15,892 nt of DNA from Fibrobacterota bacterium. Its GTDB lineage: Bacteria; Fibrobacterota; Chitinivibrionia; Chitinivibrionales; FEN-1185. The translations under genes and the position numbers were made by a program. Under the pieces are notes generated by a model. That model had not been told where the DNA came from. It did not search any database and saw nothing but the letters and a program-made list of their open reading frames with translations. Positions 4,962 through 11,276 of this stretch are shown piece after piece. Position 1 is the stretch's first letter. Every line of letters begins with the position of its first letter. The stretch is taken from positions 114,228-130,119 of the forward strand of contig PLWQ01000010.1 of the NCBI GenBank assembly GCA_003165595.1. Direction: 5' to 3'.

Positions 4962-5552
4962 TCACCTTCCGGTAACTGCCTGTGCTCCCAGGGCAACGGC
5001 ACGCCCGCGCACGTCGGGCCTCTTCGTGATGTCGCCGGATACTCCGGCATTTGGAACCAGCATCGACTTGTAGATCATTCCGGTGTAGTCGGCAGTCAGA
5101 CGAAAGGGCGCTTCCAGCTCTTTGAGTCCCGCATCCTCATAGGCGCTCGCCAGCAGGACAAGTGTTTTTCCCTTGAGTTTTGTTTCCATGGTGTTCTTGT
5201 CGTTGTCCCACTTGTAGAGTGAAAACATCCGGTCCACCACTGCCTTCAGTTGCGAACTCATTGCGAAAAAGTAGAGAGGCGTGGCCATGACGATGACGTC
5301 CGCTTCGTTCATTCCCAACAACGCTTCGGCAACGTCGTCCTTGAAAACGCAGCCGTACTCCTCTTTCTTCTGACATGCCCGGCACGACTGGCATCCCGCC
5401 ACGCTTGATTTCAGCTCAGAAGCGCGAAGAACAGTAACCTGCGCGCCAAGGCCGGCGGCACCCTCGGAAAACCATTGGATCAGTTTGTCCGTATTGCCGT
5501 TCTTCTTGGGACTTCCCGAAATAGCGATCACTTTCTTGTTGGACGAGCCCAC
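4962..5552 (-). CDS. Flavodoxin-fold NAD(P)H-dependent FMN reductase, Isf-like cysteines
   Basis: A 196-residue flavodoxin_2/FMN-reductase family protein. The phosphate-binding loop SGSPKKNGNTDKL sits at residues 12-24. Four cysteines at 54, 57, 60 and 68 form C-x2-C-x2-C-x7-C, close to the compact cluster motif of iron-sulfur flavoproteins (Isf), followed by the usual K-D-D. The segment ATPLYFFAMSSQLKAVVDR (90-108) is the family's isoalloxazine-side strand and helix. The likely role is two-electron transfer from NAD(P)H through FMN, perhaps with a 4Fe-4S cluster. The substrate is unknown. The GTG at 5552 is chosen because GGAG (5564-5561) precedes it by eight bases. A TTG at 5612 sits at the predicted transcription start and is rejected. 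It is divergent from the AraC-family gene, with a 767-base gap. Confidence 0.85.
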   Translation of the reverse strand: MGSSNKKVIAISGSPKKNGNTDKLIQWFSEGAAGLGAQVTVLRASELKSSVAGCQSCRACQKKEEYGCVFKDDVAEALLGMNEADVIVMATPLYFFAMSSQLKAVVDRMFSLYKWDNDKNTMETKLKGKTLVLLASAYEDAGLKELEAPFRLTADYTGMIYKSMLVPNAGVSGDITKRPDVRGRAVALGAQAVTGR

Positions 5553-7402: not shown

Positions 7403-7492
7403 TGCCCGGGACCGGAATCGAACCGGTACGCCGCACTAAAGCTAAGCGAAGGATTTTAAGTCCTTTGTGTCTACCTATTCCACCACCCGGGC
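7403..7492 (-). tRNA. tRNA-Leu (UAA)
   Basis: A 90-base class II tRNA. The acceptor stem GCCCGGG (7492-7486) pairs with CCCGGGC (7410-7404), with A as the discriminator (7403). The anticodon stem AAGGA/TCCTT encloses loop CTTAAAA, anticodon TAA at 7458-7456. There is a long variable arm, as expected for leucine, and a T-arm ACCGG-TTCGATT-CCGGT. CCA is not encoded. Its 3' end is duplicated at 5852-5876. Confidence 0.95.
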
Positions 7493-8004: not shown

Positions 8005-8110
8005 GGTATTGAGATGAGGGGGTATTCTTCCATCCCTGGAAGTCTGTCCATCCCTGGTCCCGCCCCGATCTTAGTTTTACCGTCCCTGGTAAGGGGGTAT
8101 CCCTAATACC
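8005..8110 (-). promoter_or_regulatory. flgM mRNA leader with repeated AGGGA hairpins, CsrA-like sites
   Basis: Minus-strand elements in order: GGTAT-TAGGG-ATACC (8110-8096); TTACC-AGGGAC-GGTAA (8092-8077); CC-AGGGAT-GG (8057-8048, stem weak beyond two pairs); CTTCC-AGGGAT-GGAAG (8042-8027). The hexaloop AGGGAY and closing CC/GG are kept while the outer stem pairs differ, so structure rather than sequence seems conserved. CAGGGATG matches the core CARGGAUG of the CsrA/RsmA SELEX consensus. The leader's 5' end (8110-8101) can also pair with 8020-8017 plus 8010-8005, next to the ribosome site, enclosing the array. Confidence 0.6.
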
Positions 8111-8308: not shown

Positions 8309-9199
8309 TTACGCCTGCCGTCCAGTAATCGTCCCTTTGTCGAGGTAACGCAAATATCCCTTCGCCCTGGGTGAAGCGAGTGCGGTGAGCGCGGCGCGCG
8401 CATTGGAGTACACCATCTCGTTGTCCGACAGGACAAAGAAACCCGCCTGGTCTTCAACTTTACGGGACGGGAATTTTGTTTTTGACACGACCCACAGGGC
8501 CGAAGCACGCATAAAGTTGTCGTTGCTCGTGAGCATGGCCATAAGATCCGCTTCGATATCCGTAAAGCCCAGGTTATAGAGCGCCTTAAGCACGTTGCCC
8601 CTGATGCGGTTTACCGGGTCTTTGCGGAACCGCAAAAGAACCGCCGTGAGTCTCCTGTTCCCCACGGCTTCGAGCGCCTCCACGGTATTGGCCCGAACTC
8701 GCTTGTCCTTGTCGTTGAGCAACGAGAGCACCAGATCCTGGTCTTCCGGTCCCACCACTCGTCCAAGCAGATTCACCGCGGTGGCGCGGATCTTCTCGTT
8801 GCGGTCCTGGATGAGGTTTGCAAGGATTTCCCGGATTTTGGGGTTTTTCTTGAGAAGCCCCAGAATCTGGATCGCGCGCACGCGGCGGTCGTTGTCCTCG
8901 CAGTAGAGGTCTTTTACGATATCGTCAATCACCGGCGGGTCGAGCGTCTCCATGATGACGCCGAGCTTCTGACGCATCTTGGGTTCGAGCTCATGGAAAT
9001 GAGTGATGAGATTGCCCCGGATAAGGTCGGATGCCGCGGCCACTGCCGCGATCTTGACAACGGGGTTTGCATGCTTGGAGAAGGAGAGTACCCCGGGCAG
9101 ATCCGTGAGCTTGCCTGTCTTGCCGAGTTCACGCAGCCCCTGTGCGACTTCGTCGGGGTTGGTCGAATGCAGGTTGGGTTTCGGGTTGTCGGCGTTCAC
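8309..9199 (-). CDS. HEAT-repeat protein, translationally coupled to uvrB
   Basis: A 296-residue soluble protein made almost wholly of HEAT/armadillo-type helical pairs. Clear units include NDRRVRAIQILGLLKKN, NEKIRATAVNLLGRVV, DKRVRANTVEALEAVG and VNRIRGNVLKALYNLG, each with the conserved R-x-A/G-x2-A/V-L spacing, at roughly 30-residue intervals from about residue 30 to 290. There is no signal peptide, membrane helix or catalytic motif, so it is probably a protein-binding scaffold. GTG at 9199 overlaps the uvrB stop as GTGA, with GGAG six bases upstream inside uvrB, so translation is coupled. This suggests a shared operon with the excision-repair gene, though a direct repair role is only an inference. 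It is not a known standard partner of UvrB. Confidence 0.8.
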   Translation of the reverse strand: MNADNPKPNLHSTNPDEVAQGLRELGKTGKLTDLPGVLSFSKHANPVVKIAAVAAASDLIRGNLITHFHELEPKMRQKLGVIMETLDPPVIDDIVKDLYCEDNDRRVRAIQILGLLKKNPKIREILANLIQDRNEKIRATAVNLLGRVVGPEDQDLVLSLLNDKDKRVRANTVEALEAVGNRRLTAVLLRFRKDPVNRIRGNVLKALYNLGFTDIEADLMAMLTSNDNFMRASALWVVSKTKFPSRKVEDQAGFFVLSDNEMVYSNARAALTALASPRAKGYLRYLDKGTITGRQA

Positions 9200-11193
9200 G
9201 CCATTCTCCGGAGTTCCTCAATGCGGTCGCGGATCTTGGCCGCTTTTTCGAACTCCAGCCTCTTTGCCGCGTCCCGCATCTCGTTTTCGAGCTTGGTGAT
9301 TATCTGCTGAATATTATCGCCATCGGAAGCGAATTTATCAAGACCTTTCGGCGAATACGATATGGTCTTCTCGCGGACCTCAGGCGCCAATTCTTCTTCG
9401 GCGGGCGTAAAAAGCCGCTCCTGGATTTTTCGCCGGATCGTGGTCGGCGTGATGCCGTGTTCCTTGTTGTACGCAATCTGTTTGGTGCGCCTGCGCGAGG
9501 TTTCGTCCATGGTTTTTTTGATGGAGTCCGTCATGACATCCGCGTACAGCACGATCCTACCCTCAACGTTGCGGGCCGCGCGGCCCGCGATTTGAATGAG
9601 CGACCGTGCCGACCGCAAAAACCCCTCTTTGTCGGCGTCGAGAATCGCCACGAGCGCAACTTCCGGAAGGTCAAGCCCCTCCCGGAGCAGGTTGATGCCC
9701 ACCAGCACGTCGAACTCGCCGAGCCGCAGGTCGCGGATGATGTCCGATCGTTCGAGGGTCTCTATTTCGGAATGCAGATAACGGACCCGGAAGTCGAGTG
9801 TGGTCAGGTATTCGGTAAGGTCTTCCGCTGTCTTTTTGGTAAGCGTGGTGACCAGGCTGCGCTGACCTTTCTCCACGATTCTTCTGAGCTGCTCAACCAG
9901 GTCGTCCACCTGGTTGACGGCGGGCTTGATTTCGATGACGGGATCAACCAGGCCCGTTGGCCGTATCACCAGTTCAACCACCATGCCGCCGCTTTTGCGC
10001 AGCTCGTAATCGGCGGGGGTTGCAGAGGCGTAAATCACGTTATCGGTCATGGATTCGAATTCGGTGAAGCGCAGCGGCCGGTTGTCGAGCGCGCAGGGAA
10101 TACGGAACCCGTGTTCCACGAGCGTTTCCTTGCGAGCGCGGTCGCCGTTGAACATGCCGTTGATCTGGGGGATGGAGGCATGCGATTCGTCGATGATGAG
10201 CAGGTACGGCGGCTTATAGAAATCGATGAGCGTGTAGGGTCTGCTGCCTGGTTCGCGGCCGTCAAGGATGCGCGAATAATTTTCTATGCCCGACACGAAC
10301 CCGATTTCGCGCAGCATCTCAATATCGTAGAGCGTACGCTGCTCCAGCCGTTGGGCTTCGAGCAGCTTGCCTGCGGCCCGGAACTTTTCGAGCTGCTCCT
10401 GCAGCTCCGCGTGGATCTGCTGCACGGCCGCCTCGATTCCCATGCGCGAGGCGGTAAAGTGCTTGGCGGGAAAAATGGTGATTGCGTCGATCGATGATAT
10501 CACTTTGCCCGTAAGGGGCTGGATCCGTTTGATTGCTTCGATATGGTCCCCGAACAGCTCGATACGCAGCGCGGTCTCGTCGTAGGCGGGTTGCAGCTCA
10601 ATGCTGTCGCCGCGAACCCGGAACGTGCCCCGGGACAGCAGCATGTCGTTGCGGTCGTACTGCATCCGGTTGAGGCTGCGGAAGAATTCGTCGCGGCCCA
10701 GGTCCTTTCCTGCTGCGATGCGCATGCTGGCGGCCGCGTACGAGTCCGGCGATCCGATGTTGTAAATGCACGAGACGCTCGCCACGATGATGACGTCTTT
10801 TCTGGACAAAAGCGAACTTGTTGCCTTGAGCCGAAGCCGGTCTATTTCGTCGTTGATCTCGGACGTTTTTTCGATGTAGGTGTCCGTGGACGGGATATAG
10901 GCTTCCGGCTGGTAATAGTCGTAGAAGCTGACGAAATACTCCACGGCGTTTTCCGGGAAATACCCCTTGAATTCCTGGAACAACTGGCCGGCAAGGGTCT
11001 TGTTGTGCGAAATAATGAGGGTGGGAAGCTGGACGCGTTCGATCACGTTCGCCATTGCAAATGTCTTGCCGGAGCCGGTGACGCCGAGGAGGGTCTGGTG
11101 CTTTGCCCCGCGGCGAATGCCGTCCACGAGCTGGTCTATTGCCTCGGGCTGGTCGCCCGCGGGTTTGAAATCCGCGACGAGTTTGAAGTTCAT
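9196..11193 (-). CDS. uvrB: UvrB, excinuclease ABC subunit B
   Basis: A 665-residue UvrB of normal length. It is the damage-verifying helicase of nucleotide excision repair: it receives DNA from UvrA, and recruits UvrC for dual incision. Landmarks: Walker A GVTGSGKT at 37-44; the tyrosine-rich beta-hairpin YYQPEAYIPSTDTYIEK (about 93-109) that clamps one strand; DESH Walker B at 335-338; helicase motifs LVGINLLREGLDLPEV and QIAGRAARN in the second RecA domain; and a C-terminal UVR domain (about 628-663, LENEMRDAAKRLEFEKAAKIR) that binds UvrC. Homology starts at the ATG at 11193 (MNFKLVADFKPAGDQPEAI), so I chose this over an upstream in-frame start at 11235. The Shine-Dalgarno there is poor. 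The stop overlaps the HEAT gene start. I see no convincing LexA box upstream. Confidence 0.97.
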   Translation of the reverse strand: MNFKLVADFKPAGDQPEAIDQLVDGIRRGAKHQTLLGVTGSGKTFAMANVIERVQLPTLIISHNKTLAGQLFQEFKGYFPENAVEYFVSFYDYYQPEAYIPSTDTYIEKTSEINDEIDRLRLKATSSLLSRKDVIIVASVSCIYNIGSPDSYAAASMRIAAGKDLGRDEFFRSLNRMQYDRNDMLLSRGTFRVRGDSIELQPAYDETALRIELFGDHIEAIKRIQPLTGKVISSIDAITIFPAKHFTASRMGIEAAVQQIHAELQEQLEKFRAAGKLLEAQRLEQRTLYDIEMLREIGFVSGIENYSRILDGREPGSRPYTLIDFYKPPYLLIIDESHASIPQINGMFNGDRARKETLVEHGFRIPCALDNRPLRFTEFESMTDNVIYASATPADYELRKSGGMVVELVIRPTGLVDPVIEIKPAVNQVDDLVEQLRRIVEKGQRSLVTTLTKKTAEDLTEYLTTLDFRVRYLHSEIETLERSDIIRDLRLGEFDVLVGINLLREGLDLPEVALVAILDADKEGFLRSARSLIQIAGRAARNVEGRIVLYADVMTDSIKKTMDETSRRRTKQIAYNKEHGITPTTIRRKIQERLFTPAEEELAPEVREKTISYSPKGLDKFASDGDNIQQIITKLENEMRDAAKRLEFEKAAKIRDRIEELRRMA

Positions 11194-11276
11194 GGTAGGA
11201 AAGATACATGAAACTTCCGGGCCGGGCTCAAACAACGCGCGCCGTCGATACTGGCTGATGCATTGAATCGGGCGCC

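Follow-up and report, generated by a model that had tools for sequence, protein, structure and literature searches.

Architecture of the flgM-B locus and its leader

The window, which is the whole stretch of 15,892 nucleotides analysed here, carries on its minus strand flgM-B (7990-7700), a second FlgM paralogue of 96 residues that encodes an anti-sigma-28 factor. It matches PF04316 with 35.3 bits (cut-off 25), and its orthologues match the same family in 17/17 cases. Upstream of flgM-B, on the same strand, are a HEAT-repeat gene (8309-9199) and, beyond it, uvrB (9196-11235), whereas a tRNA-Leu(taa) gene (7403-7492, minus strand) lies downstream. The gene is located outside any flagellar cluster, and relatives keep parts of the HEAT/uvrB/tRNA-Leu synteny. 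Profile search revealed two FlgM genes in most of these genomes, and the pair seems to be present in the majority of the order's flagellated members. The canonical paralogue, flgM-A (L118), lies in this genome at G000:C32:206988-207215. The flgM-A leaders examined are short, sigma-28-promoted and devoid of the hairpin array described below, which therefore belongs to one paralogue, flgM-B.

A sigma-28-type promoter was read directly on the minus strand at 8145-8118, with TAAAG (8145-8141) and CCGATAA (8124-8118) separated by 16 nt, and the fliA gene for sigma-28 is present in this genome. As this promoter lies directly upstream of the array, the transcript is expected to start at about the first AGGGA motif, and the array leader spans about 8111 to 7991 of the minus strand. 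The preliminary description had placed four AGGGA motifs in a leader between a sigma-28 promoter and the sigma-28 antagonist. The promoter and the PF04316 gene bear out this arrangement, and the four motifs were located on the minus strand within 8104-8033, at 8104-8100, 8087-8083, 8055-8051 and 8037-8033. Three of them had been said to share CC-AGGGAY-GG, and sites 2 to 4 indeed read CC-AGGGAC-GG, CC-AGGGAU-GG and CC-AGGGAU-GG, respectively. The signal is this cluster, as AGGGA is only mildly enriched across the whole window (33 vs 25 expected).

The four sites differ in their surroundings (all on the minus strand). Site 1 (8110-8096; GGTAT-TAGGG-ATACC, GGTATTAGGGATACC) is the weakest, whereas site 2 (8092-8077) is a hexaloop hairpin, TTACC-AGGGAC-GGTAA. 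Sites 3 and 4 form a core element (8066-8019), in which an outer stem P1 (GGGG 8066-8063 and CCCC 8022-8019) encloses two hairpins: H2, which is site 3 (CC-AGGGAU-GG, 8057-8048), and H3, which is site 4 (CTTCC-AGGGAU-GGAAG, 8042-8027). The GGAs of H2 and H3 are 18 nt apart. The stem of site 3 has just two canonical pairs in this genome, compared to longer stems in its orthologues. The Shine-Dalgarno sequence of flgM-B, AAGAAGG (8002-7996, minus strand), contains no GGA.

In the predicted fold of the full leader, the pair probabilities are 0.88-0.95 for H2 and 0.97-0.99 for H3, with the GGAs unpaired. Site 2 has a pair probability of about 0.4, an even contest, whereas at site 1 the GGA is paired in part and a local hairpin has a probability of about 0. 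The folding energy of the whole leader shows no unusual stability (z = 0.05). We also considered a switch that unmasks the Shine-Dalgarno sequence of flgM-B, which found no support, the predicted accessibility being unchanged whether or not the array was enforced. An open reading frame at 8051-7854 was likewise rejected as a leader peptide: its start ATG lies inside the AGGGAUGG loop, where many relatives read AGGGACGG or another sequence.

Conservation and covariation of the array

FlgM orthologues were fetched from relatives and all readable leaders were taken, giving 21 leaders from six families of the order. In each of the 21, the stretch from promoter to start codon contains two or three CC-ANGGAN-GG hexaloops. 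They add up to 49, compared to a mean of 0.37 and a maximum of 3 over 500 dinucleotide shuffles. The core that these leaders have in common, shared within the Chitinivibrionales/Chitinispirillales of the Fibrobacterota, consists of P1 around H2 and H3, both of which read CC-AGGGAN-GG in the main set. The spacing between the two GGAs is 18-20 nt in 20/21 leaders, and the distance from the end of H3 to the ATG ranges from 29 to 67 nt. P1 varies among leaders as GGGG/CCCC, AAGGGC/GCCCTT, GGGAG/CTCCC and AGGGGGTT/AACCCTCT. TAAAG-N15/16-CCGATA precedes most of the leaders, and many show, as judged by eye, another hairpin further upstream whose loop holds a GGA. In one family (L003-L013 and L015), the ribosome-binding site of flgM-B is in most cases a conserved hairpin, GGC-AGGUAA-GCC, just before the ATG.

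A covariance model (R1) built from 18 leaders and run over 60 genomes gave one strong match per genome, at flgM leaders. It also matched relatives outside its building set, namely L081 in G013 and L084, from another family of the phylum, in which CTCC-AAGGAC-GGAG and a P1 of AAAGGGTT/AACCCTTT are followed by a FlgM-like open reading frame. A refined model (R2) scored the core in the window with 57.2 bits (cmsearch, E 1.1e-17) and matched site 2 as a lone hairpin with 13.8 bits; the core is the single strong match of the covariance-model searches in this genome.

Since the initial MAFFT register of P1 was poor, pairs were counted on model-fitted alignments, which are biased towards structure, with shuffles and slid alignments as controls. 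Among 27 fitted sequences, 94.4% of the pair cells are paired and 8/12 pairs have changes on both sides. Double-change cells number 20, compared to 5.5 in shuffles, none of 500 shuffles reaching 20, and pairing collapses in the slid alignments. In L296, the C-G pairs beside the H3 loop co-vary to U-A. The preliminary description had taken the different outer stems of sites 2 and 4 (TTACC/GGTAA vs CTTCC/GGAAG) as a sign of selection on RNA structure. The difference is real, and the leaders of relatives agree with that reading, in that they keep the loops with compensatory changes in the stems.

A two-hairpin pattern matched 22 times in the 60 genomes, always at flgM-B leader loci, with no match of the reversed-pattern control. 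Strong array copies are essentially one per genome, with a sigma-28-like promoter in front. A pattern scan of 85k species also matched intergenic elements of Halomonadaceae, with many matches in coding sequence or tandem repeats, so the pattern by itself is no proof of CsrA binding. The Halomonadaceae element (L142, L143, L151, L153, L170, L195 and others) is multi-copy and has paired CCAGGGANGG loops within a long GC-rich hairpin (GGGGGTCTTCTTCCAGGGAAGGAAGAAGTAGCGTCCAGGGAGGGATTCACAGCGCCCCC), with no Rfam match above the gathering score. In an Oscillospiraceae metagenome-assembled genome (L189, ~5437-5476, minus strand), two CCAGGGAAGGA hairpins come after a GCCGATATAATA-like -10 element and immediately precede an ATG. 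This may represent an independent case, within Clostridia, of a CsrA leader linked to sigma-28.

Array copies without flgM

Across 167 genomes of the phylum, R2 recovered the same single matches together with three new ones above noise, in G157, G151 and G063. All three have an H2-H3 GGA spacing of 18 nt, as taken from the match positions. Weak matches (E above about 1e-4, for example 4e-4 to 0.01) fall mostly in coding frames and were taken as noise. Together with G013, four relatives thus carry the array without flgM, the weaker of these copies scoring 30-34 bits, clearly lower than the main set.

In G157, a sigma-28-like promoter and the array come after the HEAT gene, with a lipoprotein frame in place of flgM-B, and in G151 the tail of uvrB is followed by the same succession of promoter, array and lipoprotein frame. 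Both arrays could be leaders of these lipoprotein genes. In G063, the array lies after GCCGATAA behind a sigma-28-like promoter and faces an opposite-strand tRNA-Glu gene at a distance of ~150 nt, and a terminator-like hairpin separates the two; with the next downstream gene on the opposite strand, the array leads no gene there. G013 has a promoter-like -10 element, the array and then GGAAGACTTCCTTTTT, with no FlgM behind. In this genome (L081/L310), GGAAGACTTCCTTTTT is a weak terminator that shares the GGAAG arm with H3, so the binding of CsrA and termination might be mutually exclusive. By location, the copy in G063 is free-standing and the copy in the window is the flgM-B leader, whereas those in G013, G151 and G157 are ambiguous. 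The presence of the array without flgM argues for a job that is independent of flgM.

CsrA, FliW and the flagellin leaders

The preliminary description had pointed to csrA and fliW as genes to look for, and both are present, csrA lying within a flagellin-fliW-csrA cluster. CsrA here keeps the VNREEIY segment, the one that holds R44 in E. coli CsrA. The two genes have an identical distribution, occurring in the same 33/41 genomes, and csrA is present in the strong-array genomes covered by that search (G063, G151 and G157 lie outside it). G001, a member of the same genus, has neither csrA nor fliW, and also lacks both flgM genes and flagellin.

As in FliW-CsrA flagellar circuits, csrA, fliW and flagellin are linked here, and flagellin Shine-Dalgarno sequences carry CsrA-type sites. 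The fliW-adjacent flagellin gene (L061, L278, L282, L286, L289) has a sigma-54-like promoter, TGGCAY-N5-TTGC, compared to sigma-28-like promoters in front of the other 4-5 flagellin genes. Its leader contains several GGA hairpins (GGTC-AGGAT-GACC, TGC-ANGGAN-GCA) in addition to GGA in the Shine-Dalgarno sequence. In L273, L281, L283 and L288, the flagellin Shine-Dalgarno sequence lies inside a perfect CsrA-type hexaloop hairpin, CCAAC-AAGGAT-GTTGG, a striking geometry for a repressor site.

CsrA targets present GGA in hairpin loops, the preferred form being an A-R-GGA-U hexaloop closed by C-G. The array presents its GGAs in this canonical way, in C-G-closed hexaloops, three of which are in the window. 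By contrast with the flagellin leaders, 29/30 of which have a GGA within 20 nt of the ATG, only 6/21 array leaders do (Fisher P 2e-7, indicative only, as the sequences are related). A GGA site overlapping the Shine-Dalgarno sequence, the feature of glgC and hag, is likewise absent in the window and found in 6/21 array leaders.

Comparison with known CsrA-binding RNAs

No Rfam family matches the array, and none of the CsrB, CsrC and RsmX/Y/Z models reaches threshold there, a 13-bit RsmY hit (E 6, gathering score 57) being a chance match. Similar to these sRNAs, the array groups several hairpins with A-N-GGA-N hexaloops on a single RNA; judged by position, its copy in G063 is free-standing. The array differs from them in having only 2-4 sites, in being usually part of an mRNA, and in its sigma-28-like promoter, where the CsrB/RsmZ class is marked by transcription under GacA/UvrY. 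Two Rfam families were also compared: RF01729 (Termite-flg), a termite-gut RNA predicted to regulate in cis, and RF01731 (TwoAYGGAY), which has two GGA-type loops (PMC2864571). The former was suggested by habitat and name and was rejected, its best score in the 60 genomes being 24.9 bits against a gathering score of 40, at a place other than flgM. The latter resembles the array in its two GGA-type loops and matched none of the arrays.

A close likeness is to the flaA leader of Campylobacter jejuni, a CsrA target that also titrates CsrA, with hexaloops about 21 nt apart (PMC4894983). Both have two adjacent GGA hexaloops in a flagellar mRNA leader of a FliW-bearing bacterium. However, the flaA leader precedes a flagellin gene and is subject to repression by CsrA, whereas the array leads an anti-sigma factor gene, keeps its hairpins off the ribosome-binding site, has a conserved outer stem and occurs in gene-less copies. 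The leader of Salmonella fimAICDHF, as cited in PMC4894983, titrates CsrA and is itself no CsrA target; like the array, it belongs to an mRNA and has been proposed to trap CsrA in trans. It differs from the present case in that the operon is fimbrial and the leader works beside CsrB/C, with neither sigma-28 control nor FliW. In Bacillus subtilis, hag is under parallel control by CsrA and FlgM (PMC6529632), and flagellin, fliW and csrA stand together as they do here. In that circuit no CsrA-binding flgM leader is described, and here there are several flagellins, one of them behind a sigma-54-like promoter.

A leader of this kind for flgM had been presented as undescribed. This holds in part: the openly available literature searched yielded no conserved multi-hairpin array on a flgM leader, whereas a contact between CsrA and flgM mRNA is known, as C. 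jejuni CsrA co-purifies with flgM mRNA and shifts it in vitro (PMC4894983). According to a review, it was not known whether FliW and sRNAs work together in any system (PMC7652899).

A candidate sigma-28-switched CsrA trap

We lean, with a little more confidence than doubt, towards a sigma-28-switched RNA that would bind CsrA, mainly titrating it, and that has become fused in Chitinivibrionales to the flgM-B mRNA. CsrA binding, titration and the direction of the effect are the steps that we infer. The leader RNA would be made only while sigma-28 is active. One CsrA dimer would probably bridge the two core hexaloops, whose 18-20 nt spacing compares with a reported optimum of 18 nt (PMC4894983), and the flanking hairpins may supply one or two further, weaker sites. 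Most likely, the RNA would serve mainly to lower free CsrA once the late flagellar genes switch on, so that flagellin mRNAs with GGA at their ribosome-binding sites would be translated, in parallel with FliW, to which the trap would add. The same transcript would feed the anti-sigma-28 factor FlgM-B back on sigma-28. How much titration weighs depends on the abundance of the transcript relative to CsrA.

The preliminary description had left two roles side by side, CsrA setting the FlgM level or the leader titrating CsrA. The latter is now favoured over classic repression of flgM, because the array also occurs without flgM and most leaders keep their hairpins off the Shine-Dalgarno sequence. That CsrA on the array represses or stabilises the flgM-B mRNA alone, with negligible titration, is a rather unlikely explanation, though one with several points behind it. 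Every main-order copy of the array except that of G013 has flgM-B behind it, the 29-67 nt from H3 to the ATG are near enough to hamper 30S entry, and 6/21 leaders have GGA near the ATG; the flgM mRNA of C. jejuni is among those that CsrA binds (PMC4894983), and a pair of CsrA sites near the 5' end stabilises E. coli flhDC mRNA (PMC7652899). It fits poorly with the four relatives that keep promoter and array without a downstream flgM, and with the 15/21 leaders whose Shine-Dalgarno sequence has no GGA close to it, in contrast to flagellin leaders from the same genomes. Nevertheless, the array likely affects flgM-B translation or mRNA stability to some degree, and such a cis effect may coexist with the CsrA trap.

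Explanations without CsrA fare worse. P1 and the stems could act alone, by blocking ribosomes or RNases, or serve another RNA-binding protein, as CsrA binding is predicted from sequence. We regard this as improbable, given that conservation centres on C-G-closed A-N-GGA-N loops, the target of CsrA as defined by SELEX (PMC7652899), that the GGAs are about 18 nt apart, and that the searched strong-array genomes have csrA. Chance, or a DNA-level feature such as a repeat or a phase-variable inverted repeat with no RNA function, might be suspected from the near-identical repeats inside one leader and the whole-leader z of about 0. It is nonetheless very hard to credit against the excess of hexaloops over shuffles (49 vs 0.37), the compensatory changes, and the essentially single strong copy per genome behind a sigma-28-like promoter.

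As to how the trap arose, we are evenly divided on a more specific version, in which a sigma-28-controlled CsrA sponge beside FliW began, or can exist, as a free-standing RNA and was joined to a second gene for an anti-sigma-28 factor; a single transcript would thereby report twice. If so, late flagellar activation would be signalled by an RNA, which frees flagellin from CsrA, and by a protein, which damps sigma-28. The array is a conserved candidate CsrA trap in FliW-encoding genomes, tied by its promoter to the checkpoint of sigma-28 release, and it would join the anti-sigma-28 and CsrA arms of flagellar control on a single transcript.
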